In this document: one piece after another, positions 19,307 through 43,920 of the stretch | Numbering within the stretch: the stretch's first letter is position 1 | Layout of the letters: each line of letters begins with the position of its first letter | Assembly (NCBI RefSeq): GCF_019021925.1 | Contig: NZ_CP058990.1 | Location: 2,816,001-2,880,000, forward strand | Length of the DNA: 64,000 bases | Direction of reading: 5' to 3' | DNA from: Cellulophaga sp. HaHaR_3_176 | GTDB lineage: Bacteria > Bacteroidota > Bacteroidia > Flavobacteriales > Flavobacteriaceae | Made by a program: the position numbers and the translations under genes | The notes under the pieces: model-generated | Seen by the model: only the letters and a program-made list of their open reading frames with translations | What the model was told of the DNA's origin: nothing | Database searches by the model: none

Positions 19307-21787
19307 ATGGAAAAGAATAAATCAAAAAATAAATTTACGCTTCGAATTATACTGAGTTACCTTATTTTAGGCGGCCTAGCATTAATTGCTGGTATTTTTA
19401 TACTTGCAGAAGTAAAGAGCTACTTAGTTACAGACACATCAAGCAAAAACGATACAAAGCTTATTAGAACAGGCTCTTTGCTTACACAACTATATGAAGC
19501 GGAAAGCTTATCTAAATTAGCATTACAGACAAAAACTAAAGAAAATTTTACTGCTTATGCTCAAAAAATAGATTCTGTTTCTGTCGAAATAGACTCTTTA
19601 AAGCAAGTTATATTTAACCCTTATCAGACTAAATTATTAGATAGCGTTCAATATTTATTAAAACAGAAAACATATAACAACGAAGAATTAAGAAGACTTA
19701 AACTAAAGAATGATGCTAATAGTTCGCTTGACGCTGCCTTAAATAAATTCTTAAAGATGGAGGCTTCTTTTGAGAAAATATCCATCTATGATTTTAACCC
19801 AACTCCACAAAAATTACCTGAATACGAGCGTAAGGTTCTTGAAGATTGGGTTGCATTACTAAATGCGAATGTACCCAGCAATAATAAAACTAACCCCAAC
19901 ACAAAAAACATAGATTCTATTTTACAGGTTTCTAAAAAGATTTTAACAGAAGCAAAAAATAAAGACGCACTCACGCAACGCTCACTTGCAGAAAAAGAAA
20001 TGGAAATCAATAAAAACGATCTTGATTTATCACAACAATTACGCAGAATTATTTCCGCCTTTGAACAAGAAGTAATAAATGCTACTTACAACGACAATCA
20101 AAAAAGAGAAGATATTTTAAACAGAAGTACGCGCTTGGCTGGTATTGCTGCTCTACTCGGCTTTATTGTGGTTGGTATATTTACTTTTCTAATAACTCGC
20201 GATTATTGGCGTGTACAAACATACCGTCAGAATTTAGAGGAGGAAAAAAAATACTCTGAATCTTTATTAAAAAGTAGAGAGCAATTGATATCGACTGTGA
20301 GTCACGATTTACGAACGCCATTAAACACCATTACAGGGTACTCTGAATTAATGGAAAACACTGGCCTTACGGGTAAACAGGTTGGTTATTTACGAAATGT
20401 AAAATCTGCAGCAAAGTATGTAGATAGTTTAGTAAATGACCTATTAGATTTTTCTAAGCTCGAAGCTGGAAAATTAAAGATTGAGAATATTCCGTTTATT
20501 TTATCTGATTTGATTGAAGAAACATCATCTAACCTTCAAGAAATTAATAAGAAAAAAAATATTGAACTTATTATTCAAATAGATGATAAGCTTGACCAAG
20601 CTGTAATTGGCGATCCGTTTAGAATAAGACAGGTATTAACTAATTTAATAAGCAATGCTTACAAATTTACCCACGAAGGGAGTATTAAGGTAATTGCCTC
20701 TGTAGAAATAGATCAACATAAAAAATACCAAACCAAAATAGCTGTTATAGATTCAGGAATAGGTATTGAAAAAGAAAAACAGCAACATATTTTTAAAGAA
20801 TTTACGCAGGCAGATGATAGTACTGAAAAGAAATATGGTGGTTACGGATTAGGATTAACCATTTCAAAAAAACTTGCTGAATTATTAAACGGTTCTTTAA
20901 AATTAAAAAGTGAAAAAGATAAAGGGAGCACCTTTACTCTTCAAATTCCTTTAGCTGTTTCAGAAAACAAAACTATTATAAAAAAGAAAAAATTAGTTTC
21001 ATTTATAAAACCAGGCTTATCAATTTTATTAATTGACGATGATACTGCTATGCTACGTTTACTGAAAGAAGTATGCGAAACACTACATATCGAAGCCATA
21101 AGTTTCTCTGATTTTAATGAGATTGACAAAACTAAAAATTTAAAATATGATGTAGTTTTAACGGATATACAAATGCCCACTATTGATGGCTTTGAGGTTT
21201 TAAAACATTTAAAAAGCGGCAATTATAAACATTATAAGAACCAGCCAATTTTAGCGATGACAGGCAGAAAAGATCTTAGCCAAGAAACGTATTATAAAGC
21301 CGGTTTTACAAGTACACTACAAAAGCCATTTTCTAAAGATATTTTCTTAGATGAGTTAAGTACATTGTTCCCCGAAAAGGCACTGAATGTTGAAAACAAA
21401 AGTAAAATTGTTACAAAAAATATAATTTCATCGCTTTATAGCTTAGATACTATATCTTCATTTTTAGGAGATAACGATGATGGTGTAAAGGACGTTATTA
21501 ATACTTTTTTAATAGATACAGAAACTAACGTTACACAATTAAAAAACGCTACACGAACTAAAGATTTAAAAACGATAAATTCAGTTACTCACAGAATGCT
21601 ACCAATGTTCAGACAGCTACAAGCAAACGAAATTATACCAACGCTTGAACAGTTTGAAACCTTAAAAGAAGATGAACTAACAGACAAAGAGATTAAGACA
21701 AAATTTAGAAAGGTTGAAAATAGTATTATAGCACTAAAACTAGCTTTAAATACTAATCAAATTATAAATCCAGATTATAATGGTTAA
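19307..21787 (+). CDS. Hybrid sensor histidine kinase with receiver and Hpt domains
   Basis: An 826-residue phosphorelay kinase. The order is: membrane segment (about 12-32), a helical periplasmic region (about 35-270), a second membrane segment (about 272-296), HisKA with H-box STVSHDLRTPLNTITGYSEL (His333), HATPase with DSGIGIEKEK and GYGLGLTISKKLAELL, a receiver domain with Asp620 (VLTDIQMPTIDGFE), and a C-terminal Hpt-like domain with His762 (SVTHRMLPMFRQLQ). All four phosphotransfer stations are present. The gene converges on, and overlaps by 26 bases, the NtrC-type regulator, its most likely output partner. Confidence 0.93.
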   Translation: MEKNKSKNKFTLRIILSYLILGGLALIAGIFILAEVKSYLVTDTSSKNDTKLIRTGSLLTQLYEAESLSKLALQTKTKENFTAYAQKIDSVSVEIDSLKQVIFNPYQTKLLDSVQYLLKQKTYNNEELRRLKLKNDANSSLDAALNKFLKMEASFEKISIYDFNPTPQKLPEYERKVLEDWVALLNANVPSNNKTNPNTKNIDSILQVSKKILTEAKNKDALTQRSLAEKEMEINKNDLDLSQQLRRIISAFEQEVINATYNDNQKREDILNRSTRLAGIAALLGFIVVGIFTFLITRDYWRVQTYRQNLEEEKKYSESLLKSREQLISTVSHDLRTPLNTITGYSELMENTGLTGKQVGYLRNVKSAAKYVDSLVNDLLDFSKLEAGKLKIENIPFILSDLIEETSSNLQEINKKKNIELIIQIDDKLDQAVIGDPFRIRQVLTNLISNAYKFTHEGSIKVIASVEIDQHKKYQTKIAVIDSGIGIEKEKQQHIFKEFTQADDSTEKKYGGYGLGLTISKKLAELLNGSLKLKSEKDKGSTFTLQIPLAVSENKTIIKKKKLVSFIKPGLSILLIDDDTAMLRLLKEVCETLHIEAISFSDFNEIDKTKNLKYDVVLTDIQMPTIDGFEVLKHLKSGNYKHYKNQPILAMTGRKDLSQETYYKAGFTSTLQKPFSKDIFLDELSTLFPEKALNVENKSKIVTKNIISSLYSLDTISSFLGDNDDGVKDVINTFLIDTETNVTQLKNATRTKDLKTINSVTHRMLPMFRQLQANEIIPTLEQFETLKEDELTDKEIKTKFRKVENSIIALKLALNTNQIINPDYNG

Positions 21788-23126
21788 TTTTATTATAAAG
21801 AGTTTTACGAGTTATTTGTAACAGTTTAGCCGCTTTAGATTTATTGAAATTTGTTTCTTTTAATGCTCTCAAAATTTGCTCTTTTTCATAGGCGTCTTTC
21901 GAGAAATTTTCTCCGACTACTTTTTTGCTAGGCTCAAAAAGCTCCTTAGGTAAAACAATCGTATCTATATAATCTCCATTTGTTAAAAGTACAGATCGTT
22001 TTATTACGTTTTGAAGTTCTCTTAAATTACCAGGCCAGTGGTATTTTCTAAATACAGCTTCGGTTTCGTCAGATAAGCCTAATACTTTTTTATCTAATGA
22101 TTTGTTCGCTTTATCTAAAAAGAAGTCTGCAAATAAAATCAGGTCTTCTGAACGTTCTTGTAAAGAAGGTGTTTCAATCGAAAATTCATTTATTCGGTGA
22201 TATAAATCTTCTCTGAAAGTACCTTTTTCTACAGCATCAATTAAATCTTCATTTGTAGCTGTAATTACGCGAACATCAACACTTATTTCTTTTGTACTAC
22301 CTACACGTTTAATTTTTCTTTCTTGTAATGCTCTTAATAATTGTATTTGATTTTCGTAAGAAAGGTTTCCTATTTCATCTAAAAATAAGGTCCCTTTATT
22401 CGCAGCTTCAAAATGTCCAATTTTATCTTCAATTGCCCCTGTAAAACTACCTTTAACATGCCCAAAAAATTCGCTTGTAGCAATTTCTTTTGGTATAGCT
22501 CCACAATCTACTGCTATAAAATTAAAATCTTTTCTTTTACTATTATCATGTATTGCCTTAGCGGTAACTTCTTTTCCTGTTCCACTTTCACCTGTAATTA
22601 AAATTGACATATCAGTTGGCGCTACCAATTTGATATATTCGTTTAATTTTTTCGAAGCATCACTAATACCAGAAATAGATCCAGATTGAACCGCCTTGTT
22701 TTCTTCTTTATGGCTTTGCTTTTCTTTTACTGTAGGTGTTGATTTTAGCCCATCCAAAGAAGTGTTTTTTTGCTCTAAAGCATTGTTAATTACCATAACA
22801 ATTTCCTCAGGAGTAAAAGGCTTAGATATATAATCGAAAGCCCCTTTTTTCATTGCATTTACAGCCGAGCTAACTTCTGCATAACCAGTCATAACAATAA
22901 CTGGTGTTTTTGGGTTTATAGCCTTGATTTCTGATAATAACTGAATGCCGTCGTAATTCGGCAATCTTAAATCTGTTATTACTAAATCAAATGTATCATT
23001 TTTAAATTTCTTCTTTCCTTCTTCTGCATTGAAGCTTATGATAACTTCAAATTCTTTCTTCGTCAAAAACTTTTGTAACATTTGACAAAAAGCAGCATCG
23101 TCTTCAATAATTAGAATTTTCGGCAT
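21762..23126 (-). CDS. Sigma-54-dependent NtrC-family response regulator
   Basis: A 454-residue regulator. Residues 1-120 are a receiver domain (phospho-acceptor Asp52, VITDLRLPNYDG). Residues about 150-390 are an AAA+ sigma-54 activator domain with Walker A GESGTGKE, a sigma-54-contact loop GSFTGA (Ser for the usual second-position Ala), and Walker B GTLFLDEIG. The last 45 residues are a Fis-type helix-turn-helix (ILRALKETNFNKSKAAKLLQ). It needs RpoN for activity. Immediately downstream on the same strand lies the PepSY-like gene cluster with sigma-54-like promoters. Confidence 0.95.
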   Translation of the reverse strand: MPKILIIEDDAAFCQMLQKFLTKKEFEVIISFNAEEGKKKFKNDTFDLVITDLRLPNYDGIQLLSEIKAINPKTPVIVMTGYAEVSSAVNAMKKGAFDYISKPFTPEEIVMVINNALEQKNTSLDGLKSTPTVKEKQSHKEENKAVQSGSISGISDASKKLNEYIKLVAPTDMSILITGESGTGKEVTAKAIHDNSKRKDFNFIAVDCGAIPKEIATSEFFGHVKGSFTGAIEDKIGHFEAANKGTLFLDEIGNLSYENQIQLLRALQERKIKRVGSTKEISVDVRVITATNEDLIDAVEKGTFREDLYHRINEFSIETPSLQERSEDLILFADFFLDKANKSLDKKVLGLSDETEAVFRKYHWPGNLRELQNVIKRSVLLTNGDYIDTIVLPKELFEPSKKVVGENFSKDAYEKEQILRALKETNFNKSKAAKLLQITRKTLYNKINHYNLDL

Positions 23127-23269: not shown

Positions 23270-23572
23270 TTATAGTTCTATCCAATTTCCTTCTTCATCT
23301 GCGTAAACAGTACTTGCTGAACCATCTTCACTTGAAAGTTCTAATTTATACTGCATTTCTTCGTTTACGTATGCTTTATTAATTGTTGCTGTTCCAAAAT
23401 CTTTTGCAACTGCTTCAACTACTGCTTGTGGCAAAGCTTCTGCCATTATTTCTGAGAAATTATCTTGAGTATCCTCAATAACTTCTGTTGATATCATTGC
23501 TATTTCGCTCTCTTGAGCAAATGCTGTTAAACCTACTAATGTAAATACTGATGCTAAAAATAACTTTTTCAT
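23270..23572 (-). CDS. Small secreted PepSY-like protein, paralog 1
   Basis: A 100-residue protein with a signal peptide (MKKLFLASVFTLVGLTAFAQ). The acidic mature domain, LPQAVVEAVAKDF...INKAYVNEEMQYKLEL...VYADEEGNWIEL, fits the PepSY-like (DUF2874-type) fold. It is one of five homologous genes in a row (23270-26165). It carries a sigma-54-like element and three upstream boxes (see 23620-23749). The role is unknown; PepSY-like proteins are usually periplasmic. It is the copy closest to the regulator gene. Confidence 0.8.
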   Translation of the reverse strand: MKKLFLASVFTLVGLTAFAQESEIAMISTEVIEDTQDNFSEIMAEALPQAVVEAVAKDFGTATINKAYVNEEMQYKLELSSEDGSASTVYADEEGNWIEL

Positions 23573-23619: not shown

Positions 23620-23749
23620 AGAAAATATAATGCCGCTTGCTTAAAACAATACCAAATAAACATATAATGCTAAAAATCAACAACTTACAACAATTTAATG
23701 AAAAATGATTTTGTATAAATTTGGGTAAAGACGCTATGATGTGTGTAAT
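23620..23749 (-). promoter_or_regulatory. Sigma-54-like promoter and three upstream boxes of PepSY-like gene 1
   Basis: Minus-strand CGGCAT-TATAT-TTTCT at 23620-23635 resembles the -24/-12 element TGGCAC-N5-TTGCW, with TC for GC at -12. Plus-strand-written boxes TGTATAAA (23712), TGGGTAAA (23722) and TGTGTAAT (23742) lie 77, 87 and 107 bases upstream of its outer edge. The rest of the 317-base gap holds only the terminator of the next gene. Confidence 0.55.
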
Positions 23750-23820
23750 AAAGAAACATAATTAAGAACTTTATTTCTTTTATTGCTCTATACTATTATT
23801 ACCTTAAAAATAGTATACTA

Positions 23821-23849
23821 AAAAAGGTTGCCGAAGCAACCTTTTTTTA
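23821..23849 (-). terminator. GGTTGC-type terminator after PepSY-like gene 2
   Basis: Minus-strand stem GGTTGC/GCAACC closed by the extra-stable C(TTCG)G tetraloop and followed by TTTTTT. The A-tract makes it potentially bidirectional. The same hairpin recurs at 24377, 25014 and 25797. Confidence 0.9.
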
Positions 23850-23889
23850 AATTGAACTAAGTCAATTATCTATTTTATAATTAAGTAAT

Positions 23890-24195
23890 TTACATATTTA
23901 ACCACTTACCATTTTTATCTACATATACAATATATGATGATGTACCACCTTCATTAAAAAGCTCTAGCTTATACTGCCCTTTCTCATTTACAGATGACTG
24001 AGTTATTATTGCTGCAGAATAATCTTTTGCAGTTGCTTTAAAAACTGCTTCTGGTAAATCTCCTGTCATAATTTCTTTAAAACCATCTTGAGAAGTTCCT
24101 ACAACTTCAATCGGTTCAGCTTCAACCTCATTATCTTGAGCAAAGGTTACAAAGCTTGTTAATAAAAATACTGACGCTATGAATATTTTTTTCAT
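23890..24195 (-). CDS. Small secreted PepSY-like protein, paralog 2 (divergent)
   Basis: A 101-residue member of the five-gene family with a signal peptide (MKKIFIASVFLLTSFVTFAQ) and the shared core LPEAVFKATAKDY...QSSVNEKGQYKLELF...VDKNGKWLNM. It is the most divergent in sequence among the MKK-type copies. Unlike the other four it has no recognisable sigma-54-like element or TGTGTAA boxes in front of it. A 12-bp palindrome lies about 100 bases upstream instead. It may be regulated differently or be decaying at the promoter. Confidence 0.78.
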   Translation of the reverse strand: MKKIFIASVFLLTSFVTFAQDNEVEAEPIEVVGTSQDGFKEIMTGDLPEAVFKATAKDYSAAIITQSSVNEKGQYKLELFNEGGTSSYIVYVDKNGKWLNM

Positions 24196-24297
24196 AATAT
24201 GTTTTTAAAAAATTGAATTTTAAGTATAAATTATAGCACTTGCATTATATAATAATTCCAGACTTAAGAGAATTTATACTTACAGTTTATAATTAAT

Positions 24298-24331
24298 AAA
24301 CGTTGATAACAGGTTTCTATTATCAACGTTT
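24298..24331. repeat. 12-bp perfect palindrome
   Basis: AAACGTTGATAA (24298-24309) and its inverted copy TTATCAACGTTT (24320-24331) enclose a 10-base loop. T-rich sequence follows only on the plus strand, where no gene precedes it. It lies upstream of PepSY-like gene 2, roughly where the other copies carry their boxes. Function unknown: cryptic terminator or protein-binding site. Confidence 0.6.
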
Positions 24332-24376
24332 ATTTTTTTGATTTATTTTTCTAAGAATTTTTTAATTTTTAAACGT

Positions 24377-24405
24377 AAAAAAGGTTGCCGAAGCAACCTT
24401 TTTTT
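24377..24405 (-). terminator. GGTTGC-type terminator after PepSY-like gene 3
   Basis: Same GGTTGC-TTCG-GCAACC stem and T-run on the minus strand as at 23821-23849, about 40 bases after the stop of gene 3. Confidence 0.9.
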
Positions 24406-24444
24406 ATCAAACTAAACCAACTATCTAAATCTCAATTAAACAGG

Positions 24445-24750
24445 TTACATGTCTAACCAATTACCTTCTTTATCTGCATAAACAGTACCTGCTGTACCAT
24501 CTTCTAAAGAAACCTCTAATTTATATTGCTCTTTATCATTTACATATGATTTATCGATACTTGCCGTAGGGTAGTTTTTACCTACTGCTGCAGTAACTGC
24601 TTCTGGCAATTGATCATTTGCTACTTCTGTAAAACTATCTTGAGTTGCTACTACTACTACTGTTTCAGTGTTCATTGCTGTATCACTCTCTTGAGCAAAT
24701 GCTGTTAAACCTACAAATGTAAATACTGATGCTAAAATTACTTTTTTCAT
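24445..24750 (-). CDS. Small secreted PepSY-like protein, paralog 3
   Basis: A 101-residue protein with a signal peptide (MKKVILASVFTFVGLTAFAQ) and the core LPEAVTAAVGKNYPTAS...SYVNDKEQYKLEVS...VYADKEGNWLDM. It differs from paralog 4 by one residue (Val for Glu in VVVVATQD versus VVVEATQD), so the two arose by a very recent tandem duplication. It has its own sigma-54-like promoter, upstream boxes and terminator, so each copy is an independent transcription unit. Confidence 0.82.
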   Translation of the reverse strand: MKKVILASVFTFVGLTAFAQESDTAMNTETVVVVATQDSFTEVANDQLPEAVTAAVGKNYPTASIDKSYVNDKEQYKLEVSLEDGTAGTVYADKEGNWLDM

Positions 24751-24799
24751 AATATATGTGTTTTGAAATGTTTATTAATATTAAACTTATTATATCTAT

Positions 24800-24929
24800 T
24801 GAAAATATAATGCCAACTAAAAAAAAGAGCTTAAATAAATTATAAATAACTAATTATCAGTTGTTTAATATAATTTTGAAATATTTTAAACTGTGTAATG
24901 ATGGGTAAAAGCGCCACAAATTGTGTAAT
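24800..24929 (-). promoter_or_regulatory. Sigma-54-like promoter and three upstream boxes of PepSY-like gene 3
   Basis: Minus-strand TGGCAT-TATAT-TTTCA at 24800-24815, preceded by T. Boxes TGTGTAAT (24892), TGGGTAAA (24902) and TGTGTAAT (24922), written on the plus strand, lie 77, 87 and 107 bases upstream. The remaining part of the 325-base gap shows only the next terminator. Confidence 0.6.
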
Positions 24930-25013
24930 TAATAAACGCTTAAAAATTCTTAATTCTTATTTTTTCATAATATGAAGAAGTAAAGAATAATCAATTATTT
25001 AAATTTTAAACGT

Positions 25014-25042
25014 AAAAAAGGTTGCCGAAGCAACCTTTTTTT
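25014..25042 (-). terminator. GGTTGC-type terminator after PepSY-like gene 4
   Basis: Identical in stem and loop to the hairpin at 24377-24405, 34 bases after the stop of gene 4. Confidence 0.9.
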
Positions 25043-25075
25043 ATCAAACTAAACCAACTATCTCAATTAAACAGG

Positions 25076-25381
25076 TTACATGTCTAACCAATTACCTTCT
25101 TTATCTGCATAAACAGTACCTGCTGTACCATCTTCTAAAGAAACCTCTAATTTATATTGCTCTTTATCATTTACATATGATTTATCGATACTTGCCGTAG
25201 GGTAGTTTTTACCTACTGCTGCAGTAACTGCTTCTGGCAATTGATCATTTGCTACTTCTGTAAAACTATCTTGAGTTGCTTCTACTACTACTGTTTCAGT
25301 GTTCATTGCTGTATCACTCTCTTGAGCAAATGCTGTTAAACCTACAAATGTAAATACTGATGCTAAAATTACTTTTTTCAT
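25076..25381 (-). CDS. Small secreted PepSY-like protein, paralog 4
   Basis: A 101-residue near-twin of paralog 3 (one substitution), with the same signal peptide and PepSY-like core. The secreted part is acidic and about 80 residues long. No catalytic motif is visible; related PepSY-like proteins are thought to act as periplasmic inhibitors or binding modules. It is controlled by its own sigma-54-like element at 25431-25446. Confidence 0.82.
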   Translation of the reverse strand: MKKVILASVFTFVGLTAFAQESDTAMNTETVVVEATQDSFTEVANDQLPEAVTAAVGKNYPTASIDKSYVNDKEQYKLEVSLEDGTAGTVYADKEGNWLDM

Positions 25382-25430
25382 AATATATGTGTTTTAAAAT
25401 GTTTATTAATATTAAACTTATTATATCTAT

Positions 25431-25560
25431 TGAAAATATAATGCCAACTTAAAAAAAGAGCTTAAGCAAATCACAAACAACTAACTGTCAGTACTTTAAA
25501 TGATATGGGGATTTTAGTACTATGTGTAAACTTGTGTATTAATTATGGGCTTTGTATACT
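25431..25560 (-). promoter_or_regulatory. Sigma-54-like promoter and three upstream boxes of PepSY-like gene 4
   Basis: Minus-strand TGGCAT-TATAT-TTTCA at 25431-25446. Boxes TGTGTAAA (25523), TGTGTATT (25533) and TGTATACT (25553), written on the plus strand, lie 77, 87 and 107 bases upstream. These boxes are outside the duplicated block and differ in bases from those of gene 3, yet keep the spacing. Confidence 0.6.
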
Positions 25561-25796
25561 AGGTAAACACTATTTTACACAATTAAAATATAACTGCGTT
25601 GCTTGATAAGAATACAGAAAACCTACAATGGTATTTTAAATAAACGATTTATCATTTGTCTAACACATGCAACTTAATTTTATGCCCGCCTATTTATAAC
25701 TCTAACTACTTTTTAAACCTCCTGATAAGCTTCAATAAACGTTTCTACTCTCATCATAAAATATGAGATACGGTTTTTTTTGTAAAGTTCAAAAAC
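25561..25796. other. Non-coding stretch without recognised feature
   Basis: This is the middle of the 478-base gap between PepSY-like genes 4 and 5. It contains an inverted-looking TTTTACACAATT near 25574 but no gene, hairpin or promoter that I can support. Confidence 0.5.
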
Positions 25797-25827
25797 AAAA
25801 AAAGGTTGCCGAAGCAACCTTTTTTTA
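25797..25827 (-). terminator. GGTTGC-type terminator after PepSY-like gene 5
   Basis: Fourth copy of the GGTTGC-TTCG-GCAACC hairpin with flanking A and T tracts, about 33 bases after the stop of gene 5. Confidence 0.9.
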
Positions 25828-25859
25828 AACCAAACTAACTAATCCTATCTAATACTATT

Positions 25860-26165
25860 TTACATATCTAACCAATTACCTTCTCCATCAGCATAAAGTT
25901 CTAATCCTTCTCCGCCTTCAACCGATACTTCTAATTTATATTCTGCCTCACCATTTACATGAGCTTTTTTAATCGTTGCTCCCGGAAAATCTTTTTCAAA
26001 TGCTGCAGTAATAGCCTCTGGTAATGCTTCTATTTTAATTTCAGAAAAATCTTGTGCAAAAATTTCTTCCATTATACCGTCATGAAATATAGGTGCTGGT
26101 ATTGCAGCATTCATTGATCCTAAACTTCCTATTGCAATTGCTGTTGCGTATACTAAATTTTTCAT
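25860..26165 (-). CDS. Small secreted PepSY-like protein, paralog 5
   Basis: A 101-residue family member with a different signal peptide (MKNLVYATAIAIGSLGSMNA). The C-terminal core is the same: IEALPEAITAAFEKDFPGA...AHVNGEAEYKLEVS...LYADGEGNWLDM. It is the most distant member by N-terminus but keeps the family ending GNWLDM. Its promoter has the best -24 match (TTGGCAC), located right after the DUF4301 terminator. The first gene of the cluster in transcription order. Confidence 0.8.
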   Translation of the reverse strand: MKNLVYATAIAIGSLGSMNAAIPAPIFHDGIMEEIFAQDFSEIKIEALPEAITAAFEKDFPGATIKKAHVNGEAEYKLEVSVEGGEGLELYADGEGNWLDM

Positions 26166-26216
26166 GTTGTTATATTTTAATTATTTGACATCTAATTTTG
26201 TTCCTGATTGATATAT

Positions 26217-26345
26217 AGAAAGAATAGTGCCAAATAAAAAAAAACCTAAAAATCAAAATAAGTATTTGATTTTTAGGTTTTTACAATTAAAATTTAAAAA
26301 CACAAAGTGTGTAAAATTGTATACTTAAACTATATATTGAGTAAT
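26217..26345 (-). promoter_or_regulatory. Sigma-54-like promoter and three upstream boxes of PepSY-like gene 5
   Basis: Minus-strand TGGCAC-TATTC-TTTCT at 26217-26232, preceded by TT. Boxes TGTGTAAA (26308), TGTATACT (26318) and TGAGTAAT (26338), written on the plus strand, lie 76, 86 and 106 bases upstream. The DUF4301 terminator (26235-26282) sits between boxes and promoter, yet the spacing is kept. This element lacks the TATAAT seen further downstream in genes 1, 3 and 4. Confidence 0.6.
26235..26282 (-). terminator. Terminator of the DUF4301 operon
   Basis: Long minus-strand stem AAAAACCTAAAAATCAAA/TTTGATTTTTAGGTTTTT followed by TTTTATTT. It ends the operon that starts at 29950. Confidence 0.85.
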
Positions 26346-26356
26346 ATATGCACAGT

Positions 26357-43629: not shown

Positions 43630-43920
43630 ATGACGAAAGCGGATATTGTAACGAGAATCTCAGAAAAACTGGGAATTGAAAAAGGAGATGTACAGGCAAC
43701 TGTTGAATCTTTTATGGAAGAAGTGAAATATTCATTGGAAAATGGAGACAATGTATATTTAAGAGGTTTTGGTAGTTTTATCATCAAAACTAGAGCTGAA
43801 AAAACAGGTAGAAATATTTCAAAAAATACTACCATTAAAATACCTGCTCATAATATTCCTTCTTTTAAACCAGCAAAGGTTTTTGTAGAAAGTGTAAAGA
43901 GCAATGTTGAAGTAAAATAA
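43630..43920 (+). CDS. HU-family DNA-binding protein
   Basis: A 96-residue HU/IHF protein: MTKADIVTRISEKLGIEKGD, VYLRGFGSFIIKTRAEKTGRN (the DNA-binding arm with NISKNTTIKIPAHNIPSF) and PAKVFVESV. It compacts and bends DNA. The sequence is complete. A small basic protein gene follows within 31 bases, likely on the same transcript, ending at the terminator at 44031. Confidence 0.95.
   Translation: MTKADIVTRISEKLGIEKGDVQATVESFMEEVKYSLENGDNVYLRGFGSFIIKTRAEKTGRNISKNTTIKIPAHNIPSFKPAKVFVESVKSNVEVK

Follow-up and report, generated by a model that had tools for sequence, protein, structure and literature searches.

The region studied here lies in a window of 64,000 nt, taken from the 3.80 Mb genome of a marine flavobacterium whose closest named relatives among the regulator matches listed belong to Cellulophaga. 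The minus strand of the window carries five paralogous genes whose products of 100-101 aa have signal-like N-termini, are presumably secreted and are referred to below as PepSY-like: gene 1 (23270..23572, 100 aa), gene 2 (23890..24195), gene 3 (24445..24750), gene 4 (25076..25381, 99% identity to gene 3) and gene 5 (25860..26165). Read 5' to 3' along this strand, they are followed by a gene encoding an NtrC-type response regulator (21762..23126, minus strand), to which a hybrid histidine kinase gene is convergent (19307..21787, plus strand; Pfam HisKA, HATPase_c and Response_reg). As the original prediction had it, the regulator is a likely activator: its Pfam domains (Response_reg, Sigma54_activat and HTH_8) make it a full response regulator, with a receiver, an AAA+ module carrying a GSFTGA loop and a Fis-type helix-turn-helix (HTH). 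The hybrid kinase is its likely partner. In silico analyses indicate that genes 1, 3, 4 and 5 are most likely each expressed from a sigma-54 enhancer-promoter driven by this adjacent regulator.

Each of these four genes is preceded, on the minus strand, by two elements. The first is a YGGCAY-N5-TTTCW promoter element, located at 23620..23635 for gene 1 (CGGCATTATATTTTCT, corresponding to CGGCAT-N5-TTTCT), at 24800..24815 for gene 3 and 25431..25446 for gene 4 (TGGCATTATATTTTCA in both cases), and at 26217..26232 for gene 5 (TGGCACTATTCTTTCT). The second is an operator, initially described as three direct boxes starting 77, 87 and 107 bases upstream of the outer base of the promoter element (76, 86 and 106 for gene 5). 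All four promoter elements and all twelve boxes were retrieved at these places, yet the anatomy of the operator proved incomplete since a fourth, inverted half-site forms a palindrome with the outermost box, next to two direct half-sites. The operator of gene 1 thus spans 23712..23758 (inverted half-site 23752-23758; boxes 23742-23748, 23722-23728 and 23712-23718), that of gene 3 spans 24892..24938 (24932-24938; 24922-24928, 24902-24908 and 24892-24898), that of gene 4 spans 25523..25569 (25563-25569; 25553-25559, 25533-25539 and 25523-25529) and that of gene 5 spans 26308..26354 (26348-26354; 26338-26344, 26318-26324 and 26308-26314). Gene 2 has neither element, with an operator score of 17.2 and a promoter score of 8.3 (21.5-23.3 and 10.3-10.8 for the other four genes), and may depend on read-through or be silent. 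A hairpin, AAACGTTGATAA...TTATCAACGTTT, occurs upstream of this gene (window 23890-24445).

Conservation was assessed in 80 loci (1.3 Mb in total), the best 80 of a larger set obtained by searching with the regulator. These contained 147 PepSY-like matches in 74 loci, reduced to 145 in 73 loci because two had less than 200 bp upstream, and the addition of the five window genes resulted in 150 upstream regions. Operators were called at a score of at least 19 in a combined operator model, in which the inverted half-site counts at half weight. This score was reached in 137 of the 150 regions, covering the window and 71 of the 73 relative loci with usable upstream sequence, and in 0, 1, 0, 2, 0 and 0 of 150 in six shuffled sets. 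Across the 80 loci, 78 of 80 strong triples are located at most 330 bp upstream of a PepSY-like gene. When the whole 3.8 Mb genome was scanned with TAYHCA-N14-TAYMCA-N3-TTAYACA, four matches without mismatch were obtained, all before genes 1, 3, 4 and 5, and no zero-mismatch site that would extend the regulon was found elsewhere. This pattern was derived from the four window sites themselves, so that independent weight rests on the relatives; with up to two mismatches, three further matches appeared, and a reversed-pattern control gave eight at the same level. A strict four-half-site pattern, matched by one of the four window operators, occurs at five sites in four of 100 genomes, all before a PepSY-like gene, and its reversed control had none. 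Two isolated occurrences were also recorded. In L018 (7060-7300), an operator, an IHF-like stretch and a TGGCACTG-TTTTTC promoter are present with no PepSY-like open reading frame (ORF) found before a terminator-like hairpin, and could represent a relict or a small-RNA gene. In L039, a species without PepSY-like genes adjoining the regulator, an operator-like triple lies near the locus edge (255, minus strand); PepSY-like genes may be found further away in this species.

The fourth half-site was defined from 57 aligned sites of spacing register A, where TGTNTA precedes box 1 by ten bases (T 92%, G 94%, T 91%, T 89% and A 96%). The inverted half-site, unselected in these sites, equals the boxes in conservation, and an operator made of three direct boxes alone was therefore discarded. 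Together with the outermost box it forms TGTGTAA-N3-TTACACA, a 17-bp palindrome of the type expected to be bound by a Fis-type HTH dimer. The inverted half-sites of the window read TGTTTC, CGTTTA, TGTTTA and TGTGCA. Near-perfect palindromes are found again in more distant genera, in which half-sites 3 and 4 have drifted.

Spacing is better conserved than box sequence, as illustrated by genes 3 and 4. These are 99% identical from the promoter core to the ATG, with only 54% identity between their operators and ca. 51% over the 120 bp beyond, indicating that the operator either did not accompany the gene when it was copied or has changed rapidly. Spacing persists, as do the letters of the half-sites. 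This situation (window 24445-25450) suggests a conversion limited to gene and promoter core. Among the box offsets tried, (20,30) was found in 82 of the 150 regions against a median of 3, the runners-up (at most 40) being mostly 1-2 bp off. The distance between box 2 and the promoter, over the 137 operator-bearing regions, falls into 80-85 bp (42 regions), 92-95 bp (88) and 104-107 bp (6), with the remaining value (-30) corresponding to a misplaced promoter call, and the first two registers are both represented in 31 of 71 locus groups. Three registers ca. 12 bp apart indicate that the helical face is kept; the resultant length peaked at the longest period tried, 12.0 (0.852, compared to 0.752 at 10.5), so that the step exceeds one turn of B-DNA. 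In a fresh set covering 24 genera (36 regions), the 21 regions scoring at least 19 had distances mostly of 81-85, 93-97 and 105-106, with 64, 114 and 120 falling outside. The proposal that spacing is kept while boxes drift therefore holds inside the window, but an exact fixed spacing does not extend across species, where distances form helical registers of which 77/87/107 is one of three.

The loop between operator and promoter frequently contains a match to the IHF consensus, WATCAANNNNTTR. Among 94 loops, 30 contain a site with no mismatch (mean 1.5 and maximum 6 in shuffles) and 68 a site with at most one mismatch (mean 23, maximum 36). Of the 15 same-strand sites without mismatch in registers A and B, 13 are located 72-74 bases from the operator, showing that operator and IHF-like site move together. 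In the window, such sites occur in the loops of gene 1 (AATCAACAACTTA, 23675..23687, plus strand, no mismatch), gene 3 (24855..24867, plus strand, one mismatch) and gene 5 (AATCAAATACTTA, 26259..26271, minus strand, no mismatch), and the best site in the gene 4 loop has two mismatches. That of gene 5 falls within the terminator of the upstream gene, a terminator-like hairpin behind a DUF4301 gene (26240..26282, minus strand) which was correctly predicted to separate the operator and promoter of gene 5. The genome contains two genes of the HU/IHF family, whose products may bind the IHF-like sites; a match to this family is found inside the window (43630-43896, plus strand). Terminators were also flagged by a scan after genes 1 and 5, and hairpins resembling GGTTGC-TTCG-GCAACC between A and T runs were recognised by reading after genes 2, 3 and 4.

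The sigma-54 consensus is YTGGCACG-N4-TTGCW. In the present data set, the consensus T-YGGYAY-YATWTTTTCW was obtained from 128 of the 150 regions, anchored on YGGYA, so that GG and A are imposed by the anchor. The -24 part is TGGCAY-like with GG in all four window promoters, and GG is present in 136 of the 137 operator-bearing regions, under a score that favours GG. GG, C at -12 and a box 2 distance of 80-107 bp occur jointly in 120 of the 137. The unusual TC, instead of GC, pointed out for the -12 part of the window promoters is also the commonest form in relatives: the -13/-12 dinucleotide is TC in 95 of 137 regions, CC in 21, CT in 11, GT in 4, AC in 3, GC in 2 and CG in 1, which amounts to T 95, C 33, G 6 and A 3 at -13 and to C at -12 in 121. 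The promoter score weighted T and G equally at -13, and C less, so that the scarcity of G was not built into it. The two PepSY-like promoters with GC are located at L041 7384 and L044 7412. Locating promoters genome-wide with the -24/-12 pattern alone was abandoned; it gave 37 matches compared to 16 in the reversed control, and of the 30 matches examined on both strands 22 fell inside ORFs and 8 outside, 4 of the latter being the promoters studied here.

The regulator itself has the AAA+ sigma-54 interaction domain, Walker A and Walker B expected of a sigma-54 activator. Its sigma-54 contact loop is GSFTGA instead of GAFTGA in the window and in 80 of 80 relatives, a variant which, according to the available portions of two reports, is expected still to activate (PMC4641369, PMC6615313). 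A single rpoN gene occurs in the genome, its product having a conserved RpoN box and a conserved residue that, by our own count, aligns to R336; rpoN was found in all 100 genera sampled and its presence is therefore not discriminating. The kinase gene is convergent on the regulator gene in 80 of 80 loci (two being cut by a contig end), and 74 of 80 contain one to five PepSY-like genes, one of which shares the strand of the regulator and is located at most 1 kb upstream of it. Among the six other loci, the contigs of L045, L049 and L079 end too early to tell. In a survey of 100 genera of the family (E at most 1e-8 for the PepSY-like gene and 1e-150 for the regulator), the PepSY-like gene was detected in 33, the regulator in 36 and both in 32 (Fisher p 1.3e-20, relatedness ignored). 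G115, the sole genus with a PepSY-like gene and no regulator, has neither operator nor promoter. Overall, most sequence-level tests, namely rpoN, the NtrC-type neighbour, the distance from GG to the -12 C and the IHF-like site, support the sigma-54 promoters originally proposed.

Several observations weigh against this interpretation. Thirteen of the 150 regions, including that of window gene 2, remain under the operator threshold, and in the fresh set just 21 of 36 regions reach 19. The shuffled controls preserved base composition only, and the species sampled are related, so that the counts cannot be treated as independent. Compared to register A, the 24 register-B sites have a weaker inverted half-site, whose first base is mostly C, and half-sites 3 and 4 are direct repeats, an unusual arrangement for a Fis-type dimer. 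The consensus GC is present at -13/-12 in just two of 137 regions. In L039, L067 and L081, flank and regulator are present and no PepSY-like gene was found; likewise, 4 of the 36 genera with the regulator had no PepSY-like gene detected (G051, G052, G070 and G118). Finally, the genome encodes three other full sigma-54 activators, two with GAFTGA and one with GAFTSA, and the regulator is hence assigned to the promoters by linkage.

In the mechanism that we favour, sigma-54 RNA polymerase would wait at TGGYAY-N5-TTTC, and the regulator, presumably phosphorylated by the hybrid kinase, would bind the 47-bp operator, composed of the 17-bp palindrome and, two and three helical turns closer to the promoter, of two direct half-sites. 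The AT-rich loop would be bent by an IHF/HU-type protein, after which the AAA+ ring of the regulator could contact sigma-54, and loop length would be changeable only by about whole helical turns. The output would be the secreted PepSY-like paralogs, four of five having their own promoter here. These probably bind the periplasmic domain of the kinase and damp it, as DbfQ does with DbfS, so that a strong, self-driven output damping its own kinase would form a homeostatic envelope loop.

This last step relies on analogy with the DbfQRS system of Vibrio cholerae, in which a gene for a small secreted PepSY-domain protein also lies beside those of a histidine kinase and a response regulator. In the portions of the report available, the kinase DbfS is bound by DbfQ and driven toward phosphatase activity, and such neighbourhoods are said to occur in several phyla (PMC12714742); the text of the report mentions neither NtrC nor Bacteroidota, and in these portions rpoN figures solely as a hit of a biofilm screen. 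The system described here differs by its hybrid kinase, by several paralogs being common and by proteins that remain below the cut-off of PF11396 PepSY_like (28.3 bits, the best score being 22.3, with no match at E 0.001 for genes 1 and 2), so that its DbfQRS-like neighbourhood (PepSY-like gene in 74/80 loci, kinase in 80/80) involves a PepSY assignment itself under the cut-off. A profile of 16 relatives matches the solved proteins 3db7 (E 4.8e-5) and 3due (E 1.7e-4). In Bacteroides thetaiotaomicron, PepSY-like genes are listed together with a sensor kinase as up 2-5-fold on iron loss in the part of the article available (PMC10434189), which gives no more than a hint as to the signal. We consider feedback on the kinase to have a little less than an even chance. 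The same chance is given to an overlapping explanation, in which the switch operates as described and the PepSY-like proteins are effectors, for instance protease inhibitors or metal binders, with no return to the kinase: an effector family would agree with the one to five copies found per locus, while the tight linkage to the kinase and the DbfQ precedent argue for feedback.

It is quite unlikely that these sigma-54 promoters are driven by another NtrC-type activator of the genome, the linkage being historical. The three other full activators leave room for this, but 32 of the 33 genera with a PepSY-like gene have the regulator, the exception, G115, being devoid of operator, and nearly all strong operators belong to PepSY-like genes (78/80, and 5/5 for strict sites).

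Sigma-70-type promoters, with an OmpR-like activator bound to the direct boxes, are judged slightly less probable still. Such promoters could be of the TTGGCA-16-TATAAT type or of the TTG/TAnnTTTG type of flavobacteria, and 10-bp direct repeats do resemble OmpR-type sites. A TTGGCA-16-TATAAT arrangement had been reported for genes 1, 3 and 4; it stands for genes 3 and 4, with 11 of 12 consensus matches, and not for gene 1, which reads GCGGCA-16-TATAAT. Gene 5 has no TATAAT, as had been observed, and this hexamer is not conserved in relatives either: with at most one mismatch it occurs in 14 of 136 promoters compared to a shuffle mean of 18.9, and in exact form in five, three of them in the window. 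TAnnTTTG has 7 matches around the 136 promoters, at most 3 at any single offset, that is without a clear peak. The sigma-70 reading was rejected on these grounds, and the GG-to-C spacing, the IHF-like site and the linked NtrC-type gene all fit sigma-54.

The TTTC form of the -12 element was also found away from PepSY-like genes. Among 29 loci examined for ompH-like genes, 17, which all belong to the genus or its sister genus, have a TTGGCACGATATTTTCWAT-type core 38-39 bp before the ATG; none was obtained in the other 12, including two for which another start had been called. TTTC is thus not private to PepSY-like genes, and its being a private element of the regulator is further weakened by the GC promoters of L041 and L044, which adjoin a GSFTGA regulator. 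In L082 (1501-2342; C1 ca. 70590-71428 of the own genome), the ompH-like gene has a TTGGCACGATATTTTCTAT core 39 bp before its ATG, kept in the genus, and no PepSY-type operator was seen. The lon gene, which we take to be COG0466, has TTGGCAT-N5-TTGC in 10 of 18 genomes of the genus, no element being obtained in 8, and TTGC in 4 of 11 loci outside the genus (29 loci in total, one miss having no usable ORF). A lon gene with the canonical TTGGCAT-N5-TTGC element is found at L089 1501-1516. An unrecognised sigma factor or accessory protein preferring TTTC, to which the operator-free core of ompH-like genes (17/29 loci) and the TTGC kept by lon (10/18 genomes) could point, is the least probable alternative, since the ompH-like core fits the sigma-54 consensus except at -13 and the single rpoN and the NtrC-type neighbour both fit sigma-54. 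A more speculative proposal, itself unlikely, is that Flavobacteriaceae use one sigma-54 with two kinds of -12 element, TTGC for lon and TTTC for PepSY-like and ompH-like genes, and that T at -13 together with the GSFTGA loop would tune or insulate the promoter, the choice of activator being encoded partly in the -12 element and not in the enhancer alone.

The sigma-54 enhancer-promoters proposed here can be compared to known systems. In the E. coli glnAp2 enhancer, two NtrC sites ca. three helical turns apart lie ca. 110 and 140 bp upstream of the start, and by our own count the palindrome and the pair of direct half-sites are centred at comparable places, ca. 140 and 110 bp before the start expected here. 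The glnAp2 promoter differs in belonging to the nitrogen regulon, in its canonical -12 and in a second site that is not a direct-repeat pair. The qrr enhancers of Vibrio, activated by LuxO with sigma-54, also provide each target with NtrC-type sites and a sigma-54 promoter, and their loop lengths cluster at ca. 11 bp steps in 61 enhancers, according to the available sections (PMC4740811); from what these sections describe, they differ by their small RNA targets and phylum and by the palindrome with direct half-sites, the IHF-like site and the TTTC -12 element found here. A survey of Flavobacteriia predicted, in the parts available, sigma-54 control of ATP-dependent proteases including COG0466, using TGGCAC-N5-7-TTGCT as promoter motif and, for activators, exact GAFTGA as criterion, neither of which is present in the system described here (PMC12316311). 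That survey is not among the texts mentioning both PepSY and RpoN, PMC3162934 makes no mention of Bacteroidetes, Flavobacter or Gramella, and no published account of a PepSY-like/sigma-54 system was found in the literature searched.

These data define a candidate sigma-54 regulon in Bacteroidota, well delimited in that zero-mismatch operators of the own genome occur solely before neighbours of the regulator. A survey keyed to TTGCT and exact GAFTGA would probably miss it, judging from the accessible parts of its description (PMC12316311). Beside the Vibrio qrr genes, this would be a second natural family whose loops seem to vary in length only by roughly whole helical turns. The data also call into question whether G at -13 belongs to the sigma-54 consensus of this group, and make feedback of a PepSY protein on a kinase testable outside Vibrio. 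Overall, the association of PepSY-like genes, two-component system and sigma-54 in this bacterium and many of its relatives has the appearance of a dedicated envelope circuit that regulates itself, its promoter carrying an unusual letter.

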